From: Gemmatimonadota bacterium
Lineage (GTDB): Bacteria > Gemmatimonadota > Gemmatimonadetes > Longimicrobiales > Gaopeijiaceae
Length of the DNA stretch: 64,000 nucleotides
Direction: 5' to 3'
Assembly: GCA_022827345.1 (NCBI GenBank)
Contig: JAJDTB010000024.1
Location: 1-64,000, forward strand
The translations under genes were made by a program, and so were the position numbers. This document shows, piece after piece, positions 50,001 to 64,000 of the stretch (its first letter is position 1; every line of letters starts with the position of its first letter). The notes beneath the pieces were generated by a model. It was given only the letters and a program-made list of their open reading frames with translations, did not search any database and was not told where the DNA came from.

Positions 50001-50416
50001 CACTCGCGTATTCGCTGATCGGCGGGCTGACCTCTTCGACCTTCCTCGTCCTGACCGCCACCCCGGCGCTCTACTTCCTCTTCGAAAGCGCCAAGGCGCG
50101 GATGACGCTCACCGAGTATTTCTCCCCATCCGGACGGGTGAGCACGCTCTACTGGCTGACCCACATGGTGCTCTACGGGGTCGTGCTGATCGGGTTCGTG
50201 TTCGGCGCGATCACACTCTGGGATTCCTTCGAGGGCCTGCGCGGCGATGCGGCGTTCATCGACTTCGTGTTCGATTCGGTCGGCGCCCTCCCGCAAGCGG
50301 TCCAGACCGTGCTGATCTGGCTTGGCGCGGCCTGGGCAGGCCTGCTGGTGACCTGGCCGTTCGTGGCCGTCACCATCAAGTGGGCCCGCAACCTGAGGCC
50401 GGTCCGCCCGGCCTGA
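47033..50416 (+). CDS. RND efflux transporter, second subunit
   Basis: A 1127-residue RND pump. TM1 is VAIAMAYLAVASLGVFAW; the relay region reads LAFGLIVDNSIVVLENVYRR, again Asp-Asn. The second half has LLLVYMVTAALFESARLPM and GIVVNNSILLVDHINRLRR. After the usual last helix there are about 100 extra residues with two further membrane spans (HMVLYGVVLIGFVFGAITLW; VQTVLIWLGAAWAGLLVTWPF), absent from AcrB. It is coupled by ATGA to the first pump and followed by gltX after 3 bp. It most likely forms a heteromeric pump with the first subunit using the adaptor and duct upstream. Confidence 0.92.
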   Translation: MIGFSVRRPVAIAMAYLAVASLGVFAWRNIPIELVPDTRLPRLTVEGTWRGASPETVEAFLTSPLEATIQLVQGVEKVVSTSFEGQARIEVEFARDTDMDFARLDLSERIATLEETELPPGVDRVAVRPYIPREFERQQGRALLEYTFTGARTLESLREHLDDYVVPELTQVEGVAVVTARGGRERLLEVELDRERMAAMGVLPEEVSRRIADLDLVREAGAVREGDRQWTVAIRNRPGSATDVANTIVKSDGDRIVRVSDIAVVRDTYEDVRSHYRINSRPAVQLRITKEIGANSVRVADRVKERMEIVERRSPPNTRFILDRDESREIRRQLSDLRSRAVLSVFVILGVLLLFLGSVRSAMVIFASIAFSILISLNLIYFAGLTLNVLTLTGLALAFGLIVDNSIVVLENVYRRRQQGSARKSAVLKGASDVVLPVVAATATTLIVFAPFVYLKGDLRVYYLPLGIVVALTLVASLMVAFSFIPALVHRILPEAGDEAAQADGVPRKEPAYVRFYRGLVGHTLRWPWMVVAIGLSALGGSTYLFQNYVQGGMLFGGGWGQETYISINIDFPRGSDIERTDQLTRYFEDRLRRMPEVEEFETEVYDASSSRIYVTFPEELETTQVPVRIKDQLFAFSLAFSGVDVRVFGYGPSFYGGGSSPPNYSIQVLGYNYERVREIAENLGGRLERFPRVRDVNTNASGFFRRDRASEFVVDIRRDVVARHNLPVSQLVQQIMAAVRGQSSQNEIKIGGDEVRYEVKLEGNREIDLHQLRQTLLLTPEGDPVRLGELVTITPQEVLAQIRREDQQYERTVAYEFRGPYKLGDVYHNTIIDGTEVPPGYTVKKADRWRFGAEQQTQLLMVLGLALLLVYMVTAALFESARLPMCVVLTVPMALIGAFLLFFFLDAQFTREAWMGVIMMCGIVVNNSILLVDHINRLRREERLALEPAILRGTLERVRPILMTTTTTILALLPLVLFSEHADANIWNALAYSLIGGLTSSTFLVLTATPALYFLFESAKARMTLTEYFSPSGRVSTLYWLTHMVLYGVVLIGFVFGAITLWDSFEGLRGDAAFIDFVFDSVGALPQAVQTVLIWLGAAWAGLLVTWPFVAVTIKWARNLRPVRPA

Positions 50417-50419
50417 CCG

Positions 50420-51862
50420 ATGAGACTCCGCTTCGCCCCATCTCCGACGGGGTACCTGCACGTCGGCGGCGCGCGCACGGCGCTCTTCAACTGGCTGCTG
50501 GCGCGGCGGGCGGGCGGTGCGTTCCTGCTGCGCATCGAGGACACGGATCGCAATCGCAGCCGGCCCGAGCACGTCGATGCGATCCTGAACGGGCTGACGT
50601 GGCTGGGTATCGGCTGGGACGAGGAGCCGGTGCACCAGGCCGACGGGCTGGAGCGGCACCGGCGCGATGCAATGCGGCTGCTCGAGGCCGGGCGCGCCTA
50701 CCGCGACTTCACCACCCAGGAGGAGTTTGCGCGCGCCCGGGACGCCGCGGTGGAGGCCGGGACGGGGACGGTGGCGCGGCTGTCCCGCGAGTTGGCCGCG
50801 CGAGTGCCGCCGGATGAGGGCCGCCGCCGCGCCGAGGCCGGCGAGCCATTCGCTGTCCGCTTCCTCGTGCCCGACGGGGTGACCGCGTGGGATGATCTCG
50901 TGCACGGTCCTACCCGCTTCGAAAACGGTCAGATCGACGATTTCGTGATCCTGCGCAGCGATGGGACTCCCACCTACAACCTGGCCGTGGTCTCCGACGA
51001 CGCCGACATGGCGATCACGCACGTCGTGCGCGGCGACGATCACATCTCCAACACGCCCAAGCAGATCCTCCTGTACGAGGCGCTGGGCGAGGATGTCCCG
51101 GCCTTCGGACACCTGCCGATGATCCTGGGACCCGACGGGAAGCGTCTCTCGAAGCGGCACGGGGCCCAGGCGGTGGGGGCATTCCGGGACGAGGGCATTC
51201 TTCCCGAAGCGATGGTGAACTTCCTTGCGCTGCTCGGGTGGTCGCCGGGTACCGACGAGGAATTGTTGTCGGGGGATGATCTGGTGGAGCGGTTCTCGCT
51301 GGAGCGCGTCCTGAAGAAGGGGGCCGTCTTCGATCAGGCCAAGCTGCTGTGGATGAACGGCCGGTACATCGCGCGCATGGACCCGGCAGAGATCGCCGCG
51401 GCGCTCCGAGGCGTGCTGGCGGACGAAGGTATCCGGGACGGCCGGATCGACCTGCCAGAAGACGCCTTCCTGCGCATGGCCGCCGCCCTGGCGCCCCGGA
51501 GCCGTACCTTCGTCGAGATGGCGGCGCTGTCGCGCCCGTACATCGGGCCCGTTCGCGACTACAACCCCAAGGCCGCGCGCAAGGCGTGGTATCGGGATCG
51601 CGACGGCGCAGCGGCCACGCTCAGGGCGATTCGCGACCGGCTCGCGTCGGCGCGGTGGGAGGAGTCCGCCCTTGAAGAGGAACTGCGCGGACTCGCCGCG
51701 GAGCGGGGCGTCGGGGCGGGGAAGATCTTCCAGCCGCTCCGGCTGGCGCTCACGGGCGTTCCGGCCTCGCCGGGGATCTTCGACGTGCTGCTGATCCTCG
51801 GCCGGGAGCGCTCGATCCGGCGCACCGAGCGCGCGATCCAACACATCGGCACTGCAGGTTAG
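50420..51862 (+). CDS. gltX: Glutamyl-tRNA synthetase
   Basis: This 480-residue class I synthetase charges tRNA-Glu. The HIGH-equivalent is PSPTGYLHVGGARTALFNWL at the N-terminus and KMSKS-equivalent KRLSKRHGA lies near 240. RIEDTDRNRS and VVRGDDHISNTPKQILLYEAL are characteristic GluRS blocks. The C-terminal anticodon-binding helical domain ends LALTGVPASPGIFDVLLILGRERS. No GatCAB genes are in the window, so whether it also charges tRNA-Gln is unknown. It starts 3 bp after the RND pump stop and may be cotranscribed with it. Confidence 0.95.
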   Translation: MRLRFAPSPTGYLHVGGARTALFNWLLARRAGGAFLLRIEDTDRNRSRPEHVDAILNGLTWLGIGWDEEPVHQADGLERHRRDAMRLLEAGRAYRDFTTQEEFARARDAAVEAGTGTVARLSRELAARVPPDEGRRRAEAGEPFAVRFLVPDGVTAWDDLVHGPTRFENGQIDDFVILRSDGTPTYNLAVVSDDADMAITHVVRGDDHISNTPKQILLYEALGEDVPAFGHLPMILGPDGKRLSKRHGAQAVGAFRDEGILPEAMVNFLALLGWSPGTDEELLSGDDLVERFSLERVLKKGAVFDQAKLLWMNGRYIARMDPAEIAAALRGVLADEGIRDGRIDLPEDAFLRMAAALAPRSRTFVEMAALSRPYIGPVRDYNPKAARKAWYRDRDGAAATLRAIRDRLASARWEESALEEELRGLAAERGVGAGKIFQPLRLALTGVPASPGIFDVLLILGRERSIRRTERAIQHIGTAG

Positions 51863-51867
51863 TCAAC

Positions 51868-51901
51868 CGACCAATCACAATGACCGGTCAGTCTGATCGG
51901 C
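51868..51901. terminator. Imperfect hairpin between convergent gltX and permease genes
   Basis: The 42-bp gap contains CCGACCAATCA ... CTGATCGG arms (6 of 8 outer positions paired) around the self-complementary core TGACCGGTCA. No T tract is present. Its place between two convergent stops suggests a weak bidirectional terminator. Confidence 0.3.
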
Positions 51902-51904
51902 CGC

Positions 51905-53641
51905 TCAGTCGATCTTGACGGTCACGATGTCGGTGTCGAGGTACTGCTGGTGCCGCACCGACGACGCGAAGTGGCGGAGCAGGCGCGGCGAAATCTCGTG
52001 TTCGACCGGGTCGCCCCGATGGTGATCCTCGATCAGCGCCAGCCGATCCTCGATGTTGCCCTCGCCTCCCGCGGCCACGAACTCCATCTCGGCTCCCGAG
52101 CCTTCGGGCCGGATGACCAGCCGCAACCGACGCTTCGCCGCCGCCTGCTCTCCCTCCTCCCGGGCCGCGAGCAGGGTCCCGAGAGTTTCCTCGGCAACCA
52201 GGCGCAACCGATAGACGGTCTGTTCGTCCCAGCCCTTTCGCGACGACATCCGGTCGATCAGGGCGTTGATCTTCGGCAGGGAATCCACGTCGAGGTCAGT
52301 CTCGATCCGCTTCTTGCGGGGGGCCGTGAGTTCCAGGAAGGCCGTCATGGCGAGCGCCGCGAGACCACCGGAAGCCATGCCGTTGCCGAGCAGTTCGCCG
52401 AGCCAGCCTTCCAGGCCGCCGGCAAAGAAGAGCTCGTGCTGGAAGCCCGTTCCGATCCAGAAGGAAACGCCCACGATCGCCGCCTTGCGGAAGTCCATGC
52501 CGTCCTGGACGACGATCCTGAGCCCGAGTGAGAAGAGGATCGCGATCATCATGAGCAGGTAGGCCGCGGCCACGGGGCCCGGGATGGCCAGGAAGAGCGC
52601 GATCACCTTCGGCAGAAACGTCAGCGCCAGAAAGAACATCCCGATGTACATCCCTACCCGCCGCGAGGCGACACCGGTGACCTCGACGGTCGCCACCCCC
52701 GAGGCGCAGGTGGTGTTCGGCACCGTCCCGGCCAGACCGGAAAGCAGGTTCCCCACGCCGTCCGCCGCCACCGCGCCCTGCACGGAGCGGAAGTCCGTGG
52801 CCCGCGGCTTGCGCCAGGAAACCCGCTGGATCCCGACCACGTCGCCCACGGTCTCGATGGCGCCGATGAGGGTGACGAACACGAAGGCCGGCAGGAGCGC
52901 CCAGAAGGCCGGTCCGAAGTCGAAGGCGAAGCCGGGCCAGCCGCCCTGCGGGATCCCGAACCAGGGCGCTTCGATCACGCGCTCGATCTCGTAGAGTCCG
53001 AAGCCGGAGCCCACGATGCAGCCGGCGATGACCCCCGCGATCGGCGCCCACCGGCGCACGCCGCTCGAGCCGCGCAGGACCATGAGCAGGGTAACGAGCA
53101 GCGTGATGACGGCGCTCCACAGGATCCCGGTTTCGGATGCCCCTTCCGGCACCTCCTCGAGCAGCTCCGCGACCACGGGCATGATCGTGACCGCGATCAG
53201 CATCATCACGGTGCCCGCGACCGTCGGCGTGATGATCCGCCTCAGCAGCGACAGGCGCGCCGACAGCGCGAACTGGAACAGCGACGAGACGACGAGGAGG
53301 GCCATGAGCAGCGGCGGCCCGCCTTCGGTGAGCGCCGTGACGCAGACCGCGATGAACGCTCCCGACGTGACCATGAGGAGGATGTACCCCGAGCCGAACC
53401 TTCCCACGCGCCTGGCCTGGAGCATCGTGGTAATCCCCGAGATCGCCAGCGCCGCGAAGGCGGCCCAGGCGAGGTACGCGTCACCGCCGCCCGCAGCGGT
53501 TACCACGACGACCGGAATCAGGATGATTTCGCCGAGCTCGAGCATCATCAGCTGGAGGGCCAACCCCAGGGCAAGGCCGTGAGGGGGGTGCTGATCCGGC
53601 TCGTAACGAACCGGTGCGACGTGGCGGCTCGACAACGGCAT
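51905..53641 (-). CDS. NCS2 xanthine/uracil permease fused to a degenerate HATPase-like domain
   Basis: This protein has 578 residues. Residues 1-445 form a nucleobase:cation symporter-2 transporter with about 14 membrane helices and the motifs FGSGYILLMVTSGAFIAV, FVTLIGAIETVGDVVG and VPNTTCASGVATVEVTGVASRRVG. From about 447 the protein continues into a soluble domain: SLPKINALIDRMSSRKGWDEQTVYRLRLVAEETLGTLL resembles the first helices of GHKL/RsbW-type ATPases (the N-box Asn position is Thr), and it ends ASSVRHQQYLDTDIVTVKID. No nucleotide-binding G-box was found, so it may be a regulatory or docking domain. Typical NCS2 permeases end near 430-460 residues. Confidence 0.85.
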   Translation of the reverse strand: MPLSSRHVAPVRYEPDQHPPHGLALGLALQLMMLELGEIILIPVVVVTAAGGGDAYLAWAAFAALAISGITTMLQARRVGRFGSGYILLMVTSGAFIAVCVTALTEGGPPLLMALLVVSSLFQFALSARLSLLRRIITPTVAGTVMMLIAVTIMPVVAELLEEVPEGASETGILWSAVITLLVTLLMVLRGSSGVRRWAPIAGVIAGCIVGSGFGLYEIERVIEAPWFGIPQGGWPGFAFDFGPAFWALLPAFVFVTLIGAIETVGDVVGIQRVSWRKPRATDFRSVQGAVAADGVGNLLSGLAGTVPNTTCASGVATVEVTGVASRRVGMYIGMFFLALTFLPKVIALFLAIPGPVAAAYLLMMIAILFSLGLRIVVQDGMDFRKAAIVGVSFWIGTGFQHELFFAGGLEGWLGELLGNGMASGGLAALAMTAFLELTAPRKKRIETDLDVDSLPKINALIDRMSSRKGWDEQTVYRLRLVAEETLGTLLAAREEGEQAAAKRRLRLVIRPEGSGAEMEFVAAGGEGNIEDRLALIEDHHRGDPVEHEISPRLLRHFASSVRHQQYLDTDIVTVKID

Positions 53642-53876
53642 CGGTGGGCTCTCCCGATTTGTTGGCGGTCAAAGACCCCATCAATTGACGGTTTCATGGT
53701 GCACGAGGCAATTCCAACGTGGAGCAGGCGGCCGATCTCCGACCCGATGGCGGGGGGAAGCACGCCTCGCAGCCGCCTGCGCGCCGCGCCGCAGGGTTGC
53801 AACTTGTTCGGCGCGCGTCTATCGTTCACGCCGCTGCCTCTTCGCATCTGCCCCGTGTTCCTCCTCCTCCCTGAGC

Positions 53877-54584
53877 ATGCCGACAGGCCCGAGTCACCAG
53901 ACGCCAGCGCACGAATCGTCCCAGGTCCGCATTGTCCCGAGTCTCACCGACATCGAGCGGCGGATCCTCGATTTCATGGTGTCCTACCTCCGCGCCAATA
54001 CCTATCAGCCGTCCATCCGCGAGATCGGCGCCCGTTTCGGGATCAAGAGCACGAAGACCGTTTCGGAGCACCTGCAATCGCTGGCGGACAAGGGGTTCAT
54101 CGAACGGGATCCGGCACGCTCGCGCGGGATCCGGATCCTCGGGGTGGACCTGAACGCCCAGACCGTGTCGTTGCCCTGCTTCCGCGACCTGACGGAGGCG
54201 GCAAGCGGGATGCGCGATGGCCGGGTGGACGTTCACGTCACGCTCGACAGGCAGCTGGTGAGCCGGAACGGAGGCTTTGTGGTGCGGGCGCCGCGCGACC
54301 GTTTGGCCGCGGCCGGAATCAGCGACGGGGATTTCCTCGTAATCCAGCCGGTGCGCGCCGACGAACTGGCCGACGGCGAGATCATCGTGGCGCGCATGCA
54401 GGGCGCGACCGACTACTTCCAGCTCAAGAAGAGCGGTTCGCGGTTCTTTTTCTACCCCATCGGGAGCGACTCTTCCGTTCCCGATGGTGACGAAGCAGCG
54501 CAGCCGGTCATTGTGGGCAGGGTTGCGGGGCTCTTCCGTCGGATGGGCCCGCTGCCCTTCACGGCCCCGATTACGGCTCACTAG
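53877..54584 (+). CDS. LexA-like repressor without autoprotease residues
   Basis: This 235-residue protein has the LexA winged helix (IERRILDFMVSYLRANTYQPSIREI, then FGIKSTKTVSEHLQSLADKGFI, 27-74) and an S24 peptidase-like C-terminal domain (FVVRAPRDRLAAAGISDGDFLVIQP; IIVARMQGATDYFQLKKSG). Aligned with E. coli LexA, catalytic Ser119 corresponds to Arg142 and Lys156 to Phe181; the Ala-Gly cleavage site (VAAGEP) corresponds to EAASGM. Self-cleavage should therefore not occur. The start is taken at ATG 53877, before the first LexA homology; the frame is open from 53685. Divergent from the permease, 235 bp apart. It may be a LexA paralogue with a non-SOS signal. Confidence 0.82.
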   Translation: MPTGPSHQTPAHESSQVRIVPSLTDIERRILDFMVSYLRANTYQPSIREIGARFGIKSTKTVSEHLQSLADKGFIERDPARSRGIRILGVDLNAQTVSLPCFRDLTEAASGMRDGRVDVHVTLDRQLVSRNGGFVVRAPRDRLAAAGISDGDFLVIQPVRADELADGEIIVARMQGATDYFQLKKSGSRFFFYPIGSDSSVPDGDEAAQPVIVGRVAGLFRRMGPLPFTAPITAH

Positions 54585-54590
54585 CGGCCC

Positions 54591-55124
54591 GTGGCTGAGG
54601 GCCACGCGACCAGCGCCGCCGCTCCGCAGGGTTCATCGCCGTCGGGCGACGCCTCCGACCGAGCCTGGATGGCGCGCGCCCTAGAGATCGCACGGGCCGG
54701 GGGACTGCGCGGCGAAGTCCCGGTCGGCGCGGTCATCTTGCACGAGGGTGCGATCCTGGCCGAGTCCCACAACCGCACGCTGGAGCTTTGCGACCCGACC
54801 GCGCATGCCGAATCCGTGGTGATCCGTGCGGCGGCGCGGCGGCTGGGGGACTGGCGTCTCTCCCGCTGTACCCTCTACACCACCCTCGAGCCCTGCGCCC
54901 AGTGCGCCGGCGCCATCGTGCTGGCGCGGATCCCGCGCCTGGTGTACGCGGCGTCCGATCCCAAGTCGGGCATGGCGGGCAGCCTCGGCAACCTGGTGCA
55001 GGACGCGCGGCTCAATCACCGTGTTGAACTGGTCACGGGGGTGCTGGCGCCGGAGTCGGCCGAACTGCTGCGCGGTTTTTTCCGGGCCCGCCGGGGTCGA
55101 GGGGGCCCGCCAGTCCAGTCTTAG
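54591..55124 (+). CDS. tadA: tRNA-specific adenosine deaminase
   Basis: This 177-residue cytidine/deoxycytidylate-deaminase-fold zinc enzyme converts A34 to inosine in tRNA-Arg(ACG). The zinc and catalytic motifs are PTAHAESVVI (His, Glu) and TLEPCAQCAGAI (two Cys). Family landmarks EVPVGAVILHEG and DPKSGMAGSLGNLVQDARLNHRVEL are present. An N-terminal extension of about 20 residues precedes the domain (GTG 54591, 6 bp after the LexA-like gene). The last codons overlap the convergent antiporter stop. Confidence 0.93.
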   Translation: MAEGHATSAAAPQGSSPSGDASDRAWMARALEIARAGGLRGEVPVGAVILHEGAILAESHNRTLELCDPTAHAESVVIRAAARRLGDWRLSRCTLYTTLEPCAQCAGAIVLARIPRLVYAASDPKSGMAGSLGNLVQDARLNHRVELVTGVLAPESAELLRGFFRARRGRGGPPVQS

Positions 55125-57133
55125 TCTATCGTCTGACCGGACGGGGCCTCCACCTCCTCTACGGGGGTGCCGAAGGTGCGGAGGCAGAGGGCCAGCACCG
55201 CGACGCCCAAAACGAGCGCGAGCCAGGTGGGGAGCCCGAGCGCGGTCCCCACGCTGCCGAGAACGAGGCCGACCCCGCCGACCAGCACCGCGTAGGGGAG
55301 CTGGGTTCGCACGTGATCCACATGGTCGCAGGCGGCGGCCGTCGAAGACAGGACGGTCGTGTCGGAGATTGGCGAGCAGTGGTCGCCCCAGATCGCCCCC
55401 GCCAGGACGGAGCTGGTGGTGGCGAGGAGAATGCCGTACACGGAGCCGTCGGCAAAGCCGGTGCCGCCGGCGAGCGACACGGTGAGCGGGATCACGAGGG
55501 GGATCAGAATGGCCATGGTGGTCCAGGAGGTCCCGGTCGCGAACGCCATCGCCCCCGAGGTGATGAAGACCACCGCCGGGAGGAGGAAGAGGGGCAGGTT
55601 GCCCCCGAGCAGCTGTGAGACGTACGCGGCCGTGCCGACATCCTGGGTGACGGCGCCGAGCGACCACGCCAGTGTCAGGATGACCATCGCGATCATCATC
55701 GCCTTCACCCCGCCGAGCCAGGCATCGACGCACTCCTTGACGTCGAGGACTCTCTGCGAGAGGGAGAGCAGCGCGGCGACCAGGCAGCCGGAGAGCGAGC
55801 CCCAGAGCAGCGTCATGAACGGATCCGCCGCACCGAACACGTCCCTGAGCGACGCCTCCGCGCCGACCGCAGCGCGCCCGGAGGTGTAGAGTCCCCCGAG
55901 AACCACGAGAACGACCGCCGCCACGGGGAGTCCCGCATTCCACCAGCGCTCCGGCGCCCCCTCCTTGGAGTTGACGAAGCTCTCGGAGATCTCGGCGGCC
56001 GGGCGCGATCCCGGGCGCAGGAGCCCGCCTCCCGCGGCGGCCCGGGCCTCGGCACGCGCCATGGGGCCGAAATCGCGGTTCATGGCCGAGGTCAGGAAGA
56101 CGAACGCCAGGGCGAGCAGGGGATAGAAGAGGTAGGGAATCGTCTCAAGGAAAACGGTGTAGGGGCTGAGGCCGCCCAGGAAAGCCGCGTCGGCGCCGGT
56201 GGCCTCGCCGACAGCAGCTCCCAGCCCGCCGCCGATGAGCGATACCTCGTACCCCACCCAGGTCGACACCGGGACCAGCGCGGCCACCGGCGCGGCGGTC
56301 GAATCGACCAGGTAGGCCAGCTTCTCGCGGGAGATCCTGAGCCTGTCGGTGATGGGGCGCATCGTGTTGCCGACGACCAGCGTATTCGCGTAGTCGTCGA
56401 AGAAGATCGCGAGGCCGGCCAGCGCCGTGGCCACCTTGCCGCGGCGGCGATTGCGGGCCAGCGGCGCCACGGCCTTCACCACTCCCCGCGTGCCCCCGTT
56501 GCGGCTGATGATGCCCACCATGCCGCCCAGCATGAGGCTGAAGACCACGATCTGCGTGTGGCCGCCGTCGGTGTCGCCCAGGGCGGGCACCACGTACTGG
56601 TCGATGAGCCGCCAGGTGGCCTGCAGCGGGTTGTAGCCGGCGACCGCAAGCGCGCCCAGCCAGATCCCGGCGAGCAGCGCGGTGATCACTTCCTTGAAGA
56701 TCAGGGCCAGCACGATCGCGATCAGCGGCGGCAGGATCGAGAACCACCCGGGAGCGAACGGCCGCGAGATCTCGTGGACGACGTCGCCCGCGCGCAACTG
56801 CAGGGGGAGCGCGTCCCGCGAGGCGATCGAGATGTCGCGGAATTCGCGCGCCTGGCCCGCCGCCACAGGGCCGGAGGCGAGCAGGGCACCGCCGGCGTCG
56901 TAGATCTCCACCAGCGCGGAATGGTCGGAGCCGCCGGTTACCGTCACCGAGAAGGGAACCGAGGCCAGGATCACGCTGGGCGCCTCGGTAACTTCCTGGG
57001 CACCTCCCGCAAGCGGAGCAGCGAGAACAACCAGGCCAATGGTCGTCCACCGGGCAGCGCAAGAGCGGCAGAAGCTCCACCACCTCCGACTAACGGGGAC
57101 AGGGTTCACTCGGCGTGCGGGTGTTGGGGACAT
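55121..57133 (-). CDS. NhaC-type Na+/H+ antiporter with N-terminal exported domain
   Basis: About 670 residues. A signal-like segment (WTTIGLVVLAAPLAGGAQE) and about 90 residues of beta-rich exported domain (SVPFSVTVTGGSDHSALVEIYDAGG) precede a membrane domain of roughly 10-12 helices of the NhaC/ArsB-like superfamily: GWFSILPPLIAIVLALIFKEVITALLAGIW, AGLAIFFDDYANTLVVGNTMRPITDR, and GAIWGDHCSPISDTTVLSSTAAACDHVDHVRTQLPY. The FDDYAN and GDHCSPISDT blocks are the family's ion-binding signatures. Start ATG 57131-57133 is a choice among several in-frame codons up to 57226. Inferred role: sodium extrusion and pH control. Confidence 0.88.
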   Translation of the reverse strand: MSPTPARRVNPVPVSRRWWSFCRSCAARWTTIGLVVLAAPLAGGAQEVTEAPSVILASVPFSVTVTGGSDHSALVEIYDAGGALLASGPVAAGQAREFRDISIASRDALPLQLRAGDVVHEISRPFAPGWFSILPPLIAIVLALIFKEVITALLAGIWLGALAVAGYNPLQATWRLIDQYVVPALGDTDGGHTQIVVFSLMLGGMVGIISRNGGTRGVVKAVAPLARNRRRGKVATALAGLAIFFDDYANTLVVGNTMRPITDRLRISREKLAYLVDSTAAPVAALVPVSTWVGYEVSLIGGGLGAAVGEATGADAAFLGGLSPYTVFLETIPYLFYPLLALAFVFLTSAMNRDFGPMARAEARAAAGGGLLRPGSRPAAEISESFVNSKEGAPERWWNAGLPVAAVVLVVLGGLYTSGRAAVGAEASLRDVFGAADPFMTLLWGSLSGCLVAALLSLSQRVLDVKECVDAWLGGVKAMMIAMVILTLAWSLGAVTQDVGTAAYVSQLLGGNLPLFLLPAVVFITSGAMAFATGTSWTTMAILIPLVIPLTVSLAGGTGFADGSVYGILLATTSSVLAGAIWGDHCSPISDTTVLSSTAAACDHVDHVRTQLPYAVLVGGVGLVLGSVGTALGLPTWLALVLGVAVLALCLRTFGTPVEEVEAPSGQTID

Positions 57134-57379
57134 TGGAGTACCGGGATCTGTGGGAGTCGGGGCTGGCAGGCAGCGTGGCGGCCGATGTGCTTCAACCATC
57201 ATGTTGGCCGGAGCCTTCCGGTGCAATTACCTTTCGGCGGCTTGCAGGTGTCCGTGTCCGGGGTTCGGGGCTGCCCAGAGTGCATCGGCGCTCGAAACAG
57301 CCGTGACTTCGCCGGGACGCGGTGATCGGCAGGCCGGGGACCAAACCGGGCATCCACCGGCAGGAGCAGACGCGACAAG

Positions 57380-57934
57380 GTGACCCCCGCGACACCCACG
57401 GTGCTCATGGACGGCCAGGCCGTCAGGCGTGCCGTTGGCCGCATGGCCCACGAGATCATCGAGAAGCTGGGCGGGACCGAGCGCCTGGTGCTGATGGGCA
57501 TTCAGCGCCGGGGTGTCGATCTCGCGACGATGATCGGCGATGCGATCGAGGCGGCGGAGGGTGCCGAGATTCCCGCCGGCACCCTGGACATCACGCTGTA
57601 CCGCGACGATCTGATGGCGCTCGGCCCCAGACCCGTGGTAGGGGAGACCAAGCTGCCTGGCGGCGGTGTGGAGGGGATGGCCGTGGTGCTCGTCGACGAT
57701 GTCCTGTACACCGGCCGCACCGCGCGGGCGGCGCTGAACGAGCTGATGGACTGGGGGCGGCCCGCGCGCATCCTTCTCTGCGTATTGGTGGATCGGGGAG
57801 ACCGGGAGCTTCCGATTCAGCCCGACATCGTGGGGCGGGAGTTCCCCGTGCTCGCCAACCAGCGGATCGATGTGCTGGTGCCCTCCCTGGACGGCGAACT
57901 CGCGGTGGTGCTGGCCGCGCTGGAGGCGCGGTGA
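57380..57934 (+). CDS. pyrR: PyrR pyrimidine attenuator/uracil phosphoribosyltransferase
   Basis: This 184-residue PRTase-fold protein has the PRPP loop [19 protein letters not shown], the flexible-loop region [17 protein letters not shown] and [14 protein letters not shown]. In firmicutes PyrR is an RNA-binding attenuator of the pyr operon that also has uracil phosphoribosyltransferase activity. Here it is the first gene of a pyrR-pyrB-pyrC set and overlaps pyrB (GTGA). I could not recognise a PyrR-binding RNA in the 246-bp leader, so translational or other control is possible. Confidence 0.93.
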
Positions 57935-58908
57935 TCCGTTCGGCGACGACGCTGGGCAAGGACTTGATCGGTCTCGAGCCTCTGAGCCGTGAGCAGATCG
58001 AAGTCATTCTGGACACCGCGGAGCCGTTCAAGGAGATCTCCGAGCGGCGGATCAAGAAGGTGCCGGTGCTGAGGGGCAAGACGATCGTCAACCTCTTCTT
58101 CGAGGCCTCGACGCGGACGCGCATCTCCTTCGAGTTCGCGGAGAAGCGGCTCTCGGCCGACACGGTGAACATCGGCGCCGTGGGGTCGTCGGTGTCGAAG
58201 GGGGAGACGCTGGTCGACACGGCGCGCAACCTCGAGGCGATGCGGATCGACATGGTCGTGATGCGGCATTGGTCCGCCGGGGCCGCGTCGTTCCTGGCGG
58301 CGCGCATTCCCTCCAACGTGATCAACGCGGGCGACGGGGCGCACGAGCACCCAACGCAGGGACTGCTGGACATCCTCACGCTGCGGGACCACTTCGGCCG
58401 CCTGGAGGGGCTGAAGGTGTGCATCGTGGGGGATGTGCTGCATTCGAGGGTGGCGCGGTCCAATATCTTCGGTCTCGTGACGCTCGGGGCGAAGGTCGCG
58501 GTGTGCGGGCCGCGGACGTTGTTGCCGGCGGGGATAGAGGATCTCGGCGTCCGGGTCTTCGGGCGCGTGGAGGAGGCGATCGAGTGGGCGGATGCCCTCA
58601 ACGTGCTGCGCCTTCAGCTGGAGCGGATGCAGGATGGATTCGTGCCCTCGCTGCGCGAGTACAACCGCGTCTTCGGGGTGTCGCACGAGCGGCTGGAGTG
58701 GGCGCCGCGGGAGCTGCTGATCCTCCACCCCGGGCCGATGAACCGGGGCGTGGAGATCGATTCGGACGTGGCGGACGGACCGCACTCGGTGATCCTGCGG
58801 CAGGTGACGAACGGGGTGGCCATTCGCATGGCGGTGTTGTACCTGCTCGCCGGCGGCTCGCCGGACCTGGCCGAGGCGGCCAAGTCGGGGAAGGGAGTGC
58901 GGCCGTGA
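57931..58908 (+). CDS. pyrB: Aspartate carbamoyltransferase catalytic subunit
   Basis: This 325-residue ATCase forms carbamoyl-aspartate from carbamoyl phosphate and aspartate. The carbamoyl phosphate loop is [13 protein letters not shown]; other blocks are [29 protein letters not shown] and [14 protein letters not shown]. The GTG overlaps the pyrR stop. pyrC follows after 16 bp, and no regulatory pyrI is present. Its partner PyrC has lost much of its active site, which raises the possibility of a non-catalytic PyrC holding the ATCase complex, as in Pseudomonas. Confidence 0.96.
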
Positions 58909-58924
58909 GCCGGGGGAGCCGCGC

Positions 58925-60217
58925 GTGAGGAGGCTGCTGATCCGCGGCGGGCGGGTGATCGATCCGGGCGCGGGAACGGACCAGGCCGCCGACGTCCTGA
59001 TCGAGGACGGGCGCATCGTGGCGGTCGCGCCGAGCCTGGCGCCGGACGGGGCCGGGATCGTGGACGCGCGCGGGCTGGTGGTGGCGCCCGGCTTCGTGGA
59101 TCCGCACGCGCACCTGTGCGAGCCGGGGTGGGAGCACCGCGAGACGATCGCGACGGGGGCCCTGGCCGCGGCGGCGGGTGGGTACACGACCGTGTGCGCC
59201 ATGCCCGACACCGATCCCGTAGTGGACGATCCGGCCTCGGTGGGCTTCATCGTGGCGGCGGGGCGCAGGGCGAGGGGAGCCCGCGTGTATCCGGCGGCGG
59301 CGGTCTCCGTCGGCCGGAAAGGGGAGCAGCTGACCGAGTTCGGCGAGGTGGTGGAAGCGGGGGCCGTGGCCGTGACCGATGTCGGCAGGTCGATCCGGTC
59401 TTCCAAGTTGATGCGCCTGGCGCTCGAGTACGCGCTCGCTTTCGATGTGCCGGTGCTTGCCCAACCCGAGGATGCGGATCTCGCGCGGGGCGGGGTGATG
59501 CACGAGGGGGTCATGTCCACGCGTCTGGGGCTGCGCGGCAAGCCGGCCGCCGCGGAGGAAATCGGAGCCGCCCGGGATCTGGCGCTCGCGGAGGCCACCG
59601 GCGGGCGCCTGCACCTGCAGCGGGTCTCGACGGCCGCGGCGGCCGACCTGCTGCGGCGCGCCAGGGAGCGTGGAGTGCGGGTCACTGCGGAGGTCACGCC
59701 CCACCACCTCCTTCTTTCGCACGAGCTGGTGGCGGGCTACGGCACCGAGTTCAAGGTGGATCCGCCGCTGCGAACGCCCCATGACATCGAGGTGCTGTGC
59801 GCGGCTCTTGAGGACGGCACCATCGACAGCATCGCGACCGATCATGCACCGCGCACCTACGACGAGAAGGAACAGGCCTTCGACGACGCGCCCTTCGGCG
59901 TGGTGGGCTTCGAGACGGCCTTCGCCATCCTGCACACGCGCCTGGTCCTGGAGGGGCGCATCGCCCTTCCGACGCTGCTGGCGCGGATGTCGACCGGTCC
60001 GGCTGTGGCGATGGGTTTGCCGGGCGGTTCGCTCGGGCCCGGTGAGCGCGCCGATCTGGTGCTCATCGATCCACTGGCCGAGTGGACCATCGATGCGGCG
60101 GCCTTCCTCTCCAAGTGCCGCAACACGCCCTTCGGCGGAATCCAGGTCAAGGGGCGCGTGATGCGGACGCTGGTGGATGGCGACACGGTCTGGAAGGTGC
60201 CGGCCGAAACGCACTGA
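58925..60217 (+). CDS. pyrC: Dihydroorotase-like protein with altered active site
   Basis: This 430-residue class I dihydroorotase-fold protein sits after pyrB. The amidohydrolase start HAH (His61, His63) and the Asp of ATDHAP (306) are kept. Many other family positions are changed: DxHxHLREPG reads DPHAHLCEPG (Arg65 to Cys), MPNT reads MPDT (Asn95 to Asp), TDDG reads TDVG (Asp153 to Val), the AHxED site reads AQPED (His180 to Gln), and LHxxHVST reads LHLQRVST (His to Arg233). These positions bind substrate carboxylate and the second metal in known enzymes. It may be an inactive PyrC'-like structural subunit or have a changed chemistry. GTG start. Confidence 0.85.
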   Translation: MRRLLIRGGRVIDPGAGTDQAADVLIEDGRIVAVAPSLAPDGAGIVDARGLVVAPGFVDPHAHLCEPGWEHRETIATGALAAAAGGYTTVCAMPDTDPVVDDPASVGFIVAAGRRARGARVYPAAAVSVGRKGEQLTEFGEVVEAGAVAVTDVGRSIRSSKLMRLALEYALAFDVPVLAQPEDADLARGGVMHEGVMSTRLGLRGKPAAAEEIGAARDLALAEATGGRLHLQRVSTAAAADLLRRARERGVRVTAEVTPHHLLLSHELVAGYGTEFKVDPPLRTPHDIEVLCAALEDGTIDSIATDHAPRTYDEKEQAFDDAPFGVVGFETAFAILHTRLVLEGRIALPTLLARMSTGPAVAMGLPGGSLGPGERADLVLIDPLAEWTIDAAAFLSKCRNTPFGGIQVKGRVMRTLVDGDTVWKVPAETH

Positions 60218-60271
60218 CGCCCCGCGTCCCGGCAGGGGACGGGAGCAGGAAGACGGCGTGAGATGAGGAGT

Positions 60272-60296
60272 GCCGCGGGGCAAGGTCGCCCGCGGC
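60272..60296 (-). terminator. GC hairpin downstream of rpsT
   Basis: GCCGCGGG (60272-60279) and CCCGCGGC (60289-60296) form a perfect 8-bp stem with a 9-nt loop, between the convergent ends of pyrC and rpsT. A second short hairpin (CGTCCC/GGGACG, 60225-60241) lies next to the pyrC stop. Neither is followed by a strong T tract. Confidence 0.4.
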
Positions 60297-60307
60297 GTCC
60301 GGCGGCG

Positions 60308-60562
60308 CTACCGAGCCGCTCTTACCACCCGGTCGAGCTGCGCCTTGATCCGGCCCGCCTTGTTCGGGTGGAGTATGCGACGGACGGCGGCCCGGTCGAT
60401 GAGGGCCACAGCCTCCCGCCGATGTTCATCCGCCTGCTCGGCCGATGTCGCTTCGCGGACTCTGCGGATGGCGGTGCGGATCTTCGAACGGGTCTCGCGA
60501 TTCCTGCTTCGCTCGACACGGTTCAACTCCATCCGCTTCTTCGCGCTCTTGATATTGGGCAT
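60308..60562 (-). CDS. rpsT: 30S ribosomal protein S20
   Basis: An 84-residue basic protein with the S20 signature: MPNIKSAKKRMELNRVERSRNRE at the start and ALIDRAAVRRILHPNKAGRIKAQL towards the end. S20 binds the 5' domain of 16S rRNA early in 30S assembly. It is a single-gene unit divergent from pheA; an AT-containing gap of about 120 bp separates the two starts. Confidence 0.96.
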   Translation of the reverse strand: MPNIKSAKKRMELNRVERSRNRETRSKIRTAIRRVREATSAEQADEHRREAVALIDRAAVRRILHPNKAGRIKAQLDRVVRAAR

Positions 60563-60611
60563 GCTGGTCTGGTCGTCCGCCTTGCGGTCTGTGTGTTTCC
60601 ATCGGGTCGGG

Positions 60612-60638
60612 TTTACATTCGGGAATCTAAGGTAGAAT
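60612..60638 (+). promoter_or_regulatory. Candidate pheA promoter
   Basis: TTTACA (60612-60617) and TAGAAT (60633-60638) are separated by 15 bp, short for sigma70 but the only promoter-like pair in the gap. It resembles a half-site of the tandem palindromes but lacks the left half and the second copy. Confidence 0.35.
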
Positions 60639-60682
60639 CACAGGCCCCTCTTATCAACGGGCACCACCGAGGCGGAAACGGC

Positions 60683-61555
60683 TTGACGCTTGGCTATCTG
60701 GGACCCGAAGGAACCTTCAGCCAACAGGCTGCGCGCGACTATGACGCCGAGGTGCGCCACATTCCCTACTCGAACATACCGTCCGTAATGCAGGCGGCGG
60801 AGGCGGGGGAGGTCCAGGAGGCCGTGGTTCCCATCGAGAACAGCCTCGAGGGTCCGGTGACGGCGACGACGGATCTCCTGATTCACCACTCGCCGCTCGT
60901 AATCAGGCGCGAACTGGTGGTGCCGGTACATCACTGCCTGGTGATCCGTCCCGGAGCCCGGGCCTCGGACGCGGAGGTGGTGTATTCGCATCCGCAGGCG
61001 CTCGCCCAGTGCCGCGGATACCTGCGCCGCCGCTTGCCGACGGCCGAACCTGTGGCATCGCTCAGCACGGCCAGCTCCGTGACCGACATGCTCGCCAGCC
61101 CGGTGCCGGCCGCGGCGATCTCCGGTCGGACCGCCGCGGAGGGCCGCGGTGTCGTCGTCGCAGAAGCCAACATCGAGGACAGCTCCAACAATCGAACCCG
61201 GTTCCTGGTGCTGGGGCGCCGGGACGGAGCCCGCACGGGTTCGGACAAGACCTCGATCTGTTTCGACTACGACCGGGATGGCCCCGGGACACTGCATGGG
61301 ACCCTCGGCGCCCTGGCCACCCGCCGAATCAACATGGTCAAGATCGAGTCGAGGCCCGACAAGAGGAGCCTGGGACGCTATGTGTTTCTGGTCGATCTGG
61401 AGGGGCATCGCACCGACCCGGTGGTCGCGGACGCGCTGGAGGAGATGCGGGCGAGCGCGTCCATGTTCAAGATCCTGGGATCCTATCCGCGAGCTGCAGA
61501 GCCGGGGGCCTCCGCAGCGACCGGCCCCGGCTCCCGTGCAGACAGGCTGACCTGA
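60683..61555 (+). CDS. pheA: Prephenate dehydratase
   Basis: This 290-residue enzyme converts prephenate to phenylpyruvate in phenylalanine synthesis. The PDT domain runs LGYLGPEGTFSQQAARDY, VVPIENSLEGPVTATTDLL and NNRTRFLVLGRRD (the catalytic Thr-Arg-Phe motif); the C-terminal ACT domain (RDGPGTLHGTLGALATRRINMVKIESRPDK) binds phenylalanine for feedback control. The TTG at 60683 has a GAGGCGGAAACGG ribosome-binding site and begins the conserved strand; upstream in-frame sequence runs antisense over rpsT. There is no chorismate mutase domain. It overlaps the next ATG. Confidence 0.93.
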   Translation: MTLGYLGPEGTFSQQAARDYDAEVRHIPYSNIPSVMQAAEAGEVQEAVVPIENSLEGPVTATTDLLIHHSPLVIRRELVVPVHHCLVIRPGARASDAEVVYSHPQALAQCRGYLRRRLPTAEPVASLSTASSVTDMLASPVPAAAISGRTAAEGRGVVVAEANIEDSSNNRTRFLVLGRRDGARTGSDKTSICFDYDRDGPGTLHGTLGALATRRINMVKIESRPDKRSLGRYVFLVDLEGHRTDPVVADALEEMRASASMFKILGSYPRAAEPGASAATGPGSRADRLT

Positions 61556-62202
61556 TGGAATTCCTGCTCGTCGTTCCGGTCCTGCTGTTCTCCGTTGTCG
61601 CCCACGAGGTTGCCCACGCCTGGCAGGCGCTGAGGGAAGGGGACACCACCGCGCGCGACCTCGGGCGGATCACGCTCAATCCGCTGCCGCACCTGGACCT
61701 GATGGGGTCCATTGTCGTCCCGCTGGTGCTGTTCCTCCTGCCCGGGAACTTCCTCTTCGGCTGGGCGAAGCCCGTACCCGTCAATCCGCGCAACTACCGG
61801 AGCTACCCCGCGGGCGACATCCGCGTCTCGCTGGCGGGAATCGTGGTCAATCTCTGCCTGGTGGTGCTCTTTGCCCTCGGGCTGGCACTGGCGGCGGCAC
61901 TCGGCGCTTCTCGGGGCGCGGAGGGTCAAATTGGCACAACCATATTGTCCATGATGACTTATGGGGTTTTCATAAACCTCATTCTAGCGTACTTCAACCT
62001 GATACCCATCCCGCCCCTGGACGGATCCCACGTGCTCTACCACCTCCTGCCACCGAGGCTGAGAGCCCGCTATCGGGAGATGGGCAGATACGGAATCACA
62101 TTCCTGTTCTTCACTCTCGTCCTGTTTCCGGGGGCCTTCGGGATGGTGCTTTCGCCGGTGTTCCTGGCTTTCGACTGGATCCTCGGGGTGGTGCCGGGAT
62201 GA
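61555..62202 (+). CDS. M50B site-2-protease-type membrane peptidase
   Basis: A 215-residue integral membrane metalloprotease. The zinc motif HEVAH lies in the first helix (VVAHEVAHAWQALREGD) and the third ligand in NLIPIPPLDGSHVLYHLL. Four to five membrane spans are visible. This is the short, PDZ-less type often found beside scpA and trpS in bacteria; substrates are unknown, probably membrane-bound regulators. ATG 61555 overlaps the pheA stop, and its own stop overlaps scpA. Confidence 0.92.
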   Translation: MEFLLVVPVLLFSVVAHEVAHAWQALREGDTTARDLGRITLNPLPHLDLMGSIVVPLVLFLLPGNFLFGWAKPVPVNPRNYRSYPAGDIRVSLAGIVVNLCLVVLFALGLALAAALGASRGAEGQIGTTILSMMTYGVFINLILAYFNLIPIPPLDGSHVLYHLLPPRLRARYREMGRYGITFLFFTLVLFPGAFGMVLSPVFLAFDWILGVVPG

Positions 62203-62987
62203 CCGGCGAAGGCCTCCTCGTCGTCGAAACGGAGCGGTTCCGGGGACCTCTCGACCTGCTGCTTCACCTCATTCGCAGTCAGGACATCGACGTCTTCGAC
62301 ATACCCGTCGCGCGGATCACGAGACAGTTCCTGGCGGCGATCGAGGAGCTCTCGGCCGACGACGTGGACGATGCCGGGGAATTCCTGGAGATGGCGGCTG
62401 CCCTGGTGCGGATCAAGGCCCGCATGCTCCTTCCAGGGCCGCCCGGGGAAGACGACCAGGATCCTCGGGCCGAACTGGTGCGCCGGCTCCTCGAGTACGA
62501 GCAGATTCGCGAAATCGCGCTGCGGCTGCGCACCGCCGAGAACGACCGCGGGCGCCGCTTCGCCAAGGGCTTCGTCGAGCCGCGCCCGCGCACGGTGGCC
62601 GCGGACGTGCCGCTGACGGTCACCTGGGAAGAAGTCATGGCGGCCGCGGCTGGCGTCGTGGCGCCGGAGGAGAGGGAGCGGGAACACCGTGTGTTCACCC
62701 GGCCGGTTGCAATGCGGGAGAAGGTCGACCTGATCGTCGCGGCGGTGACCAGGGCTCGCAGGATCGAGTTCGATCGTCTCATCGCGCCGTGGAAGGAGCG
62801 GGTGCACGCGGTCATGACGCTCCTGGCGGGATTGGAGCTCGGACGCAGGCGCGTGGTGTCGCTGCGCCAGAGGAAGCCCTTTTCGCCGTTGTGGATCTAT
62901 CGGGGATCCAACGTCGGCGCGGATGTCTCCGATATGGCGGCCGACGGTGCGGACGCGGTGCCGAACGAAATGGGGGGCGAATCATGA
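62199..62987 (+). CDS. scpA: Segregation and condensation protein A
   Basis: This 262-residue kleisin subunit of the SMC-ScpAB condensin has the N-terminal FRGPLDLLLHLIRSQDIDVFDIPVARIT, LEMAAALVRIKARMLLP, then a variable middle and a C-terminal winged helix (VMTLLAGLELGRRRVVSLRQRKPFSPLWI). It bridges SMC head domains for chromosome compaction. The start codon overlaps the M50 stop, and its own stop overlaps scpB (ATGA). Confidence 0.95.
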   Translation: MTGEGLLVVETERFRGPLDLLLHLIRSQDIDVFDIPVARITRQFLAAIEELSADDVDDAGEFLEMAAALVRIKARMLLPGPPGEDDQDPRAELVRRLLEYEQIREIALRLRTAENDRGRRFAKGFVEPRPRTVAADVPLTVTWEEVMAAAAGVVAPEEREREHRVFTRPVAMREKVDLIVAAVTRARRIEFDRLIAPWKERVHAVMTLLAGLELGRRRVVSLRQRKPFSPLWIYRGSNVGADVSDMAADGADAVPNEMGGES

Positions 62988-63544
62988 ACGATGCGAGCAT
63001 CGTTGAGGCGATCCTGTTCGCGAGCGACGCGCCACTGACCCCCGGCGACATCGCGCGCGCCGACGAGACCCTGGACGAGGACCGCGTCGAGGCGGCGCTG
63101 GCGGCGCTGCGGGCGGACTACGACCGCTCGGGGCGGGCCTTCGAGCTGCGCGAGGTGGCGGATGGCGTCCAGCTCATGACCCGGCCGGAGTTCGCGCCGT
63201 ACCTGGAACGCTTCGACACGGTGCCGCGGACGTCGCGGCTGTCCGGGCCTGCCCTCGAGGCGCTGGCCATCGTGGCGTACCGGCAGCCGATCAGCCGCAT
63301 CGAGGTCGAATACGTCCGGGGCGTGAACTCCACGGGTGTGATCCGGACCCTGATCGAGCGCGGCCTCATCGAGGGGGTGGCGAGGGGGGAGGGGGTGGGA
63401 CGCCCCGTGCTGTACGGCACCACGTCACGTTTCATGGAACACTTCGGCTTTGCATCGCTCGAGGATCTGCCGCGGCCGGAGGACCTCCCGGTCGTGCTCC
63501 GCGAGAGCGAGACGACGTCGGACCCCGATAATGAAGATGCGTGA
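62984..63544 (+). CDS. scpB: Segregation and condensation protein B
   Basis: This 186-residue protein has two winged-helix domains: IVEAILFASDAPLTPGDIARA at the N-terminus and LSGPALEALAIVAYRQPISRIEVEYVRGVNSTGVIRTLIERGLIEG in the centre, followed by GVGRPVLYGTTSRFMEHFGF. It partners ScpA in the condensin complex. Start ATG 62984 overlaps the scpA stop. A pseudouridine synthase frame begins within its last codons. Confidence 0.95.
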   Translation: MNDASIVEAILFASDAPLTPGDIARADETLDEDRVEAALAALRADYDRSGRAFELREVADGVQLMTRPEFAPYLERFDTVPRTSRLSGPALEALAIVAYRQPISRIEVEYVRGVNSTGVIRTLIERGLIEGVARGEGVGRPVLYGTTSRFMEHFGFASLEDLPRPEDLPVVLRESETTSDPDNEDA

Positions 63545-64000
63545 CCGCCGCCCGGAGCCCATGCGGGTCCAGAAGTACGTTTCCCGGTCCGGAGTTGCGT
63601 CGCGCCGCCAGGCGGAAGCACTGATGCGTGAGGGCCGCATACTCGTCAACGGCGTACCCGTGACGGCCATGGGCTCGGTCATGATCCCCGGGGTCGACAC
63701 GGTGTCGCTCGACGGAACAGTGGTCCGGCCCGCGGCCCGCCGCTGGGTCGTGCTCCACAAACCGACCGGAGTCCTCTGCACGCGCGCGGATCCCCACGGG
63801 GGCAAGACCATCTACGACGGGCTACCCGACTGGGCCGCCTCGCTCCGCTATGTGGGGCGGTTGGACCGGGAGACGTCCGGAGTGCTCCTGATGACCAACG
63901 ATGGGGATCTCGGCGCCGCCCTGGCGCATCCGAGCAGCCGCGTGGAGCGGGAGTATGTGGCCAGGGTAGCCGGGCAGGTCACCGCGCGGGCGCTGAGGTC
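63531..64000 (+). CDS. RsuA/RluB-family pseudouridine synthase (3' end outside window)
   Basis: The reading frame is open to the window edge. It shows an S4 RNA-binding domain (MRVQKYVSRSGVASRRQAEALM from ATG 63561) and the catalytic motif GRLDRETSGVLLMTNDGDLG, in which Asp is the nucleophile. The family (RsuA, RluB, RluE, RluF) isomerises single uridines in rRNA. Three in-frame ATGs (63531, 63537, 63561) are possible; the first two overlap the scpB stop, and GGAG stands 4 bp before the third. scpA-scpB-rluB is a widespread gene order, which favours RluB. Confidence 0.9.
   Translation, partial: MKMRDRRPEPMRVQKYVSRSGVASRRQAEALMREGRILVNGVPVTAMGSVMIPGVDTVSLDGTVVRPAARRWVVLHKPTGVLCTRADPHGGKTIYDGLPDWAASLRYVGRLDRETSGVLLMTNDGDLGAALAHPSSRVEREYVARVAGQVTARALR

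Follow-up and report, generated by a model that had tools for sequence, protein, structure and literature searches.

The gene at positions 58925-60217 of the window, by which we mean the whole 64,000-nucleotide stretch of a Gemmatimonadota contig analysed here, very probably encodes a class I dihydroorotase (DHO) homologue with a lost catalytic pocket (pDHO), which would serve as a non-catalytic structural subunit of a class A2-like aspartate transcarbamoylase (ATCase) while the true DHO is encoded elsewhere in the genome. The computed basis of this reading comprises the loss of residues, the second enzyme, the co-occurrence of the two, the operon, the selection acting on the gene and the predicted fold.

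The gene, here pyrC′, is an open reading frame (ORF) that starts with GTG at 58925 and whose stop codon ends at 60217. It belongs to a pyr cluster in which the stop of a pyrR-like gene overlaps the start of pyrB and pyrB is separated from pyrC′ by 16 nt. At every locus where pyrB was found, it immediately precedes pyrC and shares its strand. An Rfam search of positions 50000-64000 returned no match. The first gene of the cluster we take to belong to the PyrR family (bifunctional attenuator/UPRTase). The genes and the pocket positions, with the equivalent residue of the Aquifex enzyme where numbering differs, are as follows.

57380..57934, + strand: pyrR-like gene that opens the pyr cluster (ORF)
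57931..58908, + strand: pyrB, ATCase catalytic chain, 325 aa, catalytic motifs intact (sequence)
58925..60217, + strand: pyrC′, probable pDHO, 430 aa (ORF, profile, alignment, predicted fold)
59105..59113, + strand: HxH motif kept, His61, Ala62, His63 (alignment)
59117..59119, + strand: Cys65 in place of substrate-binding Arg65 (alignment)
59207..59209, + strand: Asp95 in place of substrate-binding Asn95 (alignment)
59381..59383, + strand: Val153 in place of the zinc ligand Asp153 (alignment)
59462..59464, + strand: Gln180 in place of His180 of the second-metal site; His, Gln or Arg within the clade (alignment)
59621..59623, + strand: Arg233 in place of Aquifex His232; Arg in every clade member that covers the site (alignment)
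59759..59761, + strand: Asp279 in place of Aquifex Asn278 (alignment)
59840..59842, + strand: Asp306, equivalent to Aquifex Asp305 (the DHAP Asp), kept (alignment)
59852..59854, + strand: Arg310 in place of substrate-binding Aquifex His309 (alignment)

As a reading of the DNA made from its letters alone (the sequence-only reading) had stated, overall sequence and length are well kept: the 430-residue protein matches TIGR00857 (class I dihydroorotase) over its whole length with 387 bits against a cut-off of 279, which places it among the class I DHO homologues, and aligns with the Aquifex enzyme (3d6n_A) over residues 1-424 with an E value of 7.5e-94. In Aquifex numbering, used from here on, pairwise and multiple alignments show that it retains H61, H63 and D305 and carries the substitutions R65C, N95D, D153V, H180Q, C181P, H232R, N278D and H309R. 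Every substitution named by the sequence-only reading (Arg65/Asn95 to Cys/Asp, and Asp153, His180 and His232 to Val, Gln and Arg) is right, and so is its view that only His61, His63 and the DHAP Asp are left; its list of losses was incomplete in lacking H309R and N278D. An active enzyme would be expected to present the ligands His61, His63, Asp153 and Asp305 together with the substrate-binding residues Arg65, Asn95 and His309, and the window protein has Val153, Cys65, Asp95 and Arg309 instead. Changes in the clade are concentrated in this region, with only 10 of 108 sites that are invariant in canonical PyrC being altered, and 6 of the altered sites belonging to the set of 10 active-site positions (Fisher p 2e-5).

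These losses do not weigh equally. The zinc ligands of the Aquifex enzyme are His61, His63 and Asp153, with Asp305 next closest, and its H180A/H232A double mutant is active, which makes His180 and His232 dispensable (PMC3880350); their loss is therefore weak evidence. The telling losses are those of Asp153, Arg65, Asn95 and His309. Arg65 is the conserved substrate-binding arginine (PMC12524618), and three ligand-binding residues of the human active site, R1475, N1505 and H1690 (PMC9856072), are by motif alignment the equivalents of Arg65, Asn95 and His309. Loss of a zinc ligand does not by itself prove inactivity, because a Pseudomonas PyrC paralogue without the conserved zinc ligands is reported to be active (PMC2770081).

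That a true DHO must exist elsewhere, as had been predicted from the window, is borne out by a protein encoded at G000:C64:107363-108697 (L002:1495-2832). It matches NF005751/PRK07575 with 652 bits (cut-off 529), keeps the Arg/Asn/His substrate triad and is, judging by its family and residues, likely the active dihydroorotase. A DHO of this type is present in 25 of the 26 genomes with a degenerate PyrC and in none of the 36 sampled relatives with an intact one; a threshold of E<=1e-60 detects it in G034, G114 and G196 and, within the window's genus, in 22 of 23 genomes. No further enzyme of this kind came from the relatives or from the 395 phylum genomes searched at the same threshold; the single other match, in G076, is a different protein (HFDDPGF motif) that lies beside an intact PyrC. 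No replacement DHO was found in G003, a 95% complete draft of 230 contigs in which nothing else scored, and none of five clade genomes tested gave a type II PyrC match above the cut-off. Two other DHO-like proteins of the window's own genome, on contigs C15 and C48, were rejected as the missing enzyme on account of lacking the Arg/Asn/His triad and falling below the family cut-off. Throughout the clade, Gln stands at the first His position of the HxH motif in the replacement DHO (DDQVHFRDPG; L002, L157), G114 alone having His (DAHVHFRDPG). The PRK09236-like enzymes of Pseudomonadales (L183, L248 and L249) share this glutamine, which, like the missing replacement DHO in G003 and in the Latescibacterota genome G416, would count against the preferred reading.

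Of 59 relatives, 58 yielded a PyrC orthologue, and the alignment of these proteins, which the sequence-only reading had proposed as a check, shows that the degenerate pocket is a property of the clade. It is seen, as far as each gene was covered, in 26/26 genomes of four Longimicrobiales genera, namely all 23 of the window's genus together with G034, G114 and G196 of the same family; in G007 and G017 pyrC is cut by contig ends and the sites that are covered agree with the degenerate pattern. In the 36 further genomes sampled from the family, order and class, two of which are split or interrupted assemblies, the set is intact (Arg, Asn, Asp, His, His). The named matches are Gemmatimonadota/Longimicrobiales metagenome-assembled genomes (MAGs). 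The same set of substitutions recurs in independent MAGs of one genus, including the single-contig G001, G021 and G114, which excludes both chance and sequencing error. Within the genus, pyrC′ proteins are 71-97% identical to the window protein and the replacement residues are fixed.

The gene evolves under constraint. Its dN/dS value is 0.12 between the window and the nearest relative and 0.18 as the clade median, the corresponding median for pyrB being 0.11, and the ratio of pyrC dN to pyrB dN stands at 2.2 for the clade against 1.6 for canonical genomes; relaxation is only mild and purifying selection persists. PyrB itself is 80-99% identical within the family and order. The predicted pyrC′ model (pLDDT 88, pTM 0.91) superposes on 3d6n, the Aquifex DHO in its ATCase-activated complex, and on 4yiw with TM values of 0.93-0.95. 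Of the three loops modelled with low confidence, two (186-207 and 310-331) rank among the best-conserved segments measured (0.93 and 0.92 vs 0.81 overall) and, from their position, are the probable counterparts of Aquifex loops that are ordered only by ATCase. The PyrI regulatory subunit (TIGR00240) gave no match in 10 genomes, with controls matched in 7/14, which would fit a class A rather than a class B ATCase. Adjacency to pyrB, purifying selection and the preserved fold all fit a role as ATCase partner like that of PyrC′ in Pseudomonas.

A scan with the clade alignment recovered degenerate PyrC also in Latescibacterota, in one unplaced bacterium and in two Pseudomonadales. Among Latescibacterota, PyrC is degenerate in 15 of 16 genomes, and a class II PyrC (TIGR00856) accompanies it in 14 of these 15 and is absent from the genome with an intact PyrC; the genomes are related, and such counts do not represent independent events. 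The degenerate proteins (L145, L193-L204) lie adjacent to pyrB and carry R65C, N95D, D153A/G and H309R, as well as V62A and K72R. Seven canonical-invariant sites are changed in both phyla (overlap p 6e-5), including R65C, N95D, D153A and H309R; Cys65 cannot be counted as convergence because the pattern through which the Latescibacterota loci were found contained it, and Asp95, Ala153, Arg309 and Arg72 were not part of that pattern. Asp95 is found, in addition, in 11 of 14 Pseudomonadales pDHOs (L234-L247), in which HxH is mostly lost and Asp153 is scrambled. Across these alignments Asn95Asp is a recurrent signature of pDHO. Two Latescibacterota proteins have other degenerate sets, R61/D95/R180/G232/W309 in L205 (genome G416, where no replacement DHO was detected) and R61/Y63/D95/P153 in L207 (G417). 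Single genomes (L199, L201, L203) show further losses (H63Y, D305G) or Gly at 65, His63 or Asp305 being lost in L199 and L201.

In a PyrC tree built without the active-site columns, the Gemmatimonadota pDHO clade is monophyletic (100/98) and stands beside canonical Longimicrobiales; its nesting within family f1 would be compatible with this tree (p 0.15). In the PyrB tree the clade falls within its own family, which argues that the pyr operon was probably inherited vertically. Grouping of the Latescibacterota with the Gemmatimonadota pDHOs is rejected (AU test, p 4e-11), and pDHO seems to have arisen independently in Latescibacterota. Horizontal transfer of one pDHO between the phyla is thus rejected for the whole gene, and for pyrB by the PyrB tree. 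When the segment around residues 40-176 is considered alone, the same grouping has a p value of 0.126, and local recombination between the pDHOs of the two phyla may have affected this region. The window pyrC′ and the Pseudomonadales pDHO are separate in the PyrC tree and may have separate origins, although this tree brings together the long branches of the Aquifex and Pseudomonadales rows.

The closest known counterpart is the Pseudomonas pDHO, or PyrC′, of class A2 ATCase, which is itself inactive yet is required for ATCase to assemble (PMC7053772, citing Schurr et al. 1995). Both are class I DHO homologues encoded directly after pyrB with catalytic residues lost, both are accompanied by another DHO elsewhere in the genome, its activity in the window's case being suggested by family and residues, and Asn95Asp is frequent in both. 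The likeness to Pseudomonas PyrC′ drawn by the sequence-only reading thus holds for the role but not for the residues in detail: the sampled Pseudomonadales pDHOs usually lose HxH and often keep His309, whereas the window protein keeps HxH and Asp305 and loses Arg65, Asp153 and His309. Assembly and inactivity were tested experimentally for Pseudomonas PyrC′, whereas their counterpart in the window is predicted from sequence. The class A1 DHO-ATC dodecamer of Aquifex aeolicus (3d6n, 4bjh; PMC3880350) shares the fold, the PyrB partner and the conserved candidate ATC-ordered loops; its DHO is active in the complex, and seven catalytic-pocket positions differ in the window protein. Compared by description only, the pseudo-DHO domain of fungal CPS-ATC (ura2-like) is likewise an inactive DHO with a structural role next to ATCase (PMC7053772), but as a domain of a fused protein rather than a separate bacterial subunit. 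The Latescibacterota proteins resemble the window protein in R65C, N95D, the loss of Asp153 (D153A/G), H309R, V62A and K72R, in the adjacent pyrB and in the presence of a replacement DHO, and differ in mostly keeping His180/His232 and in having a class II enzyme as replacement.

The following course of events would account for these observations. An ancestral active class I PyrC, presumably in a class A1 ATCase-DHOase complex with PyrB, would have become catalytically dispensable through a PRK07575-type DHO encoded elsewhere in the genome; Asp153 and the carboxylate triad (Arg65, Asn95, His309) would then have been lost, the fold and presumably the PyrB-binding surface remaining under selection. 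PyrC′ dimers would hold or order PyrB trimers without catalysis in a class A2-like dodecamer, as shown for Pseudomonas (PMC7053772). We infer the absence of DHOase activity, the formation of the complex, the dependence of PyrB on PyrC′ and the sequence of the steps, with the replacement enzyme first and decay later.

One feature counts against a pDHO that acts as a pure scaffold, of which conserved replacements need not be expected: Cys65, Asp95, Arg232 and Arg309 are themselves conserved. They suggest a locked pocket, perhaps with an Asp95-Arg309 ion pair. More broadly, and tentatively, pDHOs could evolve repeatedly and convergently towards one particular rewired pocket (Arg65Cys, Asn95Asp, Asp153Ala, His309Arg) because it contributes actively to the ATCase complex. 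Such a pocket might do so through an internal ion pair between Asp95 and Arg309, which would stand in for the substrate carboxylate and fix the conformation bound to ATCase, or it might form a new effector site. Outright repurposing, with PyrC′ as a regulatory or enzymatic subunit that modulates PyrB and uses Cys65/Asp95/Arg232/Arg309 to bind a different ligand, is unlikely: the fixation of the replacements over the genus, their recurrence for the most part in Latescibacterota and the Asn95Asp of Pseudomonadales would agree with it, but no ligand or effector is known for it, and the same pattern would be expected from conserved internal ion pairs that fill an empty pocket.

An enzyme that is still active, with one metal on His61/His63/Asp305 and substrate binding rebuilt by Cys65/Asp95/Arg309, is quite improbable. 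His61, His63 and Asp305 are invariant across the Gemmatimonadota clade and would allow a residual metal site, the new pocket residues are conserved, and both the Aquifex double mutant and the Pseudomonas paralogue retain activity; this alternative is disfavoured because Asp153 and the whole substrate-carboxylate triad are gone together. Moreover, Asn95Asp brings a negative charge to the expected position of the substrate carboxylate, a canonical second DHO accompanies the protein in 25/26 genomes, and the parallel L199 and L201 lose His63 or Asp305. A recent, functionless pseudogene or assembly error, with which the loss of catalytic residues alone would agree, is refuted in practice by an open full-length frame kept in 26 genomes (single-contig ones included), by dN/dS values of 0.12-0.18 and by the preserved linkage to PyrB.

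A pDHO subunit in this clade would extend the ATCase-pDHO organisation to Gemmatimonadota and Latescibacterota, for which no earlier report was found in the literature searched. Closely related genera that combine an active or a probably dead PyrC with a ~80% identical PyrB constitute a natural experiment, which makes testable both the non-catalytic contribution of DHO to ATCase and the cause of the convergence of dead copies on one set of residues. Annotation calls for caution, as family models name pyrC′ a dihydroorotase where the enzyme is likely encoded elsewhere. Latescibacterota also have an allantoinase-like protein (L184-L188, L208-L221) with the motif HLRSPGH...GSDHSPF, L184 scoring 344 bits against TIGR03178, just under the cut-off of 358. 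Two amidohydrolases of Clostridium cadaveris and a Halanaerobiaceae MAG (L154, L155) carry an HLCEPG motif and are 28-30% identical to the window protein.
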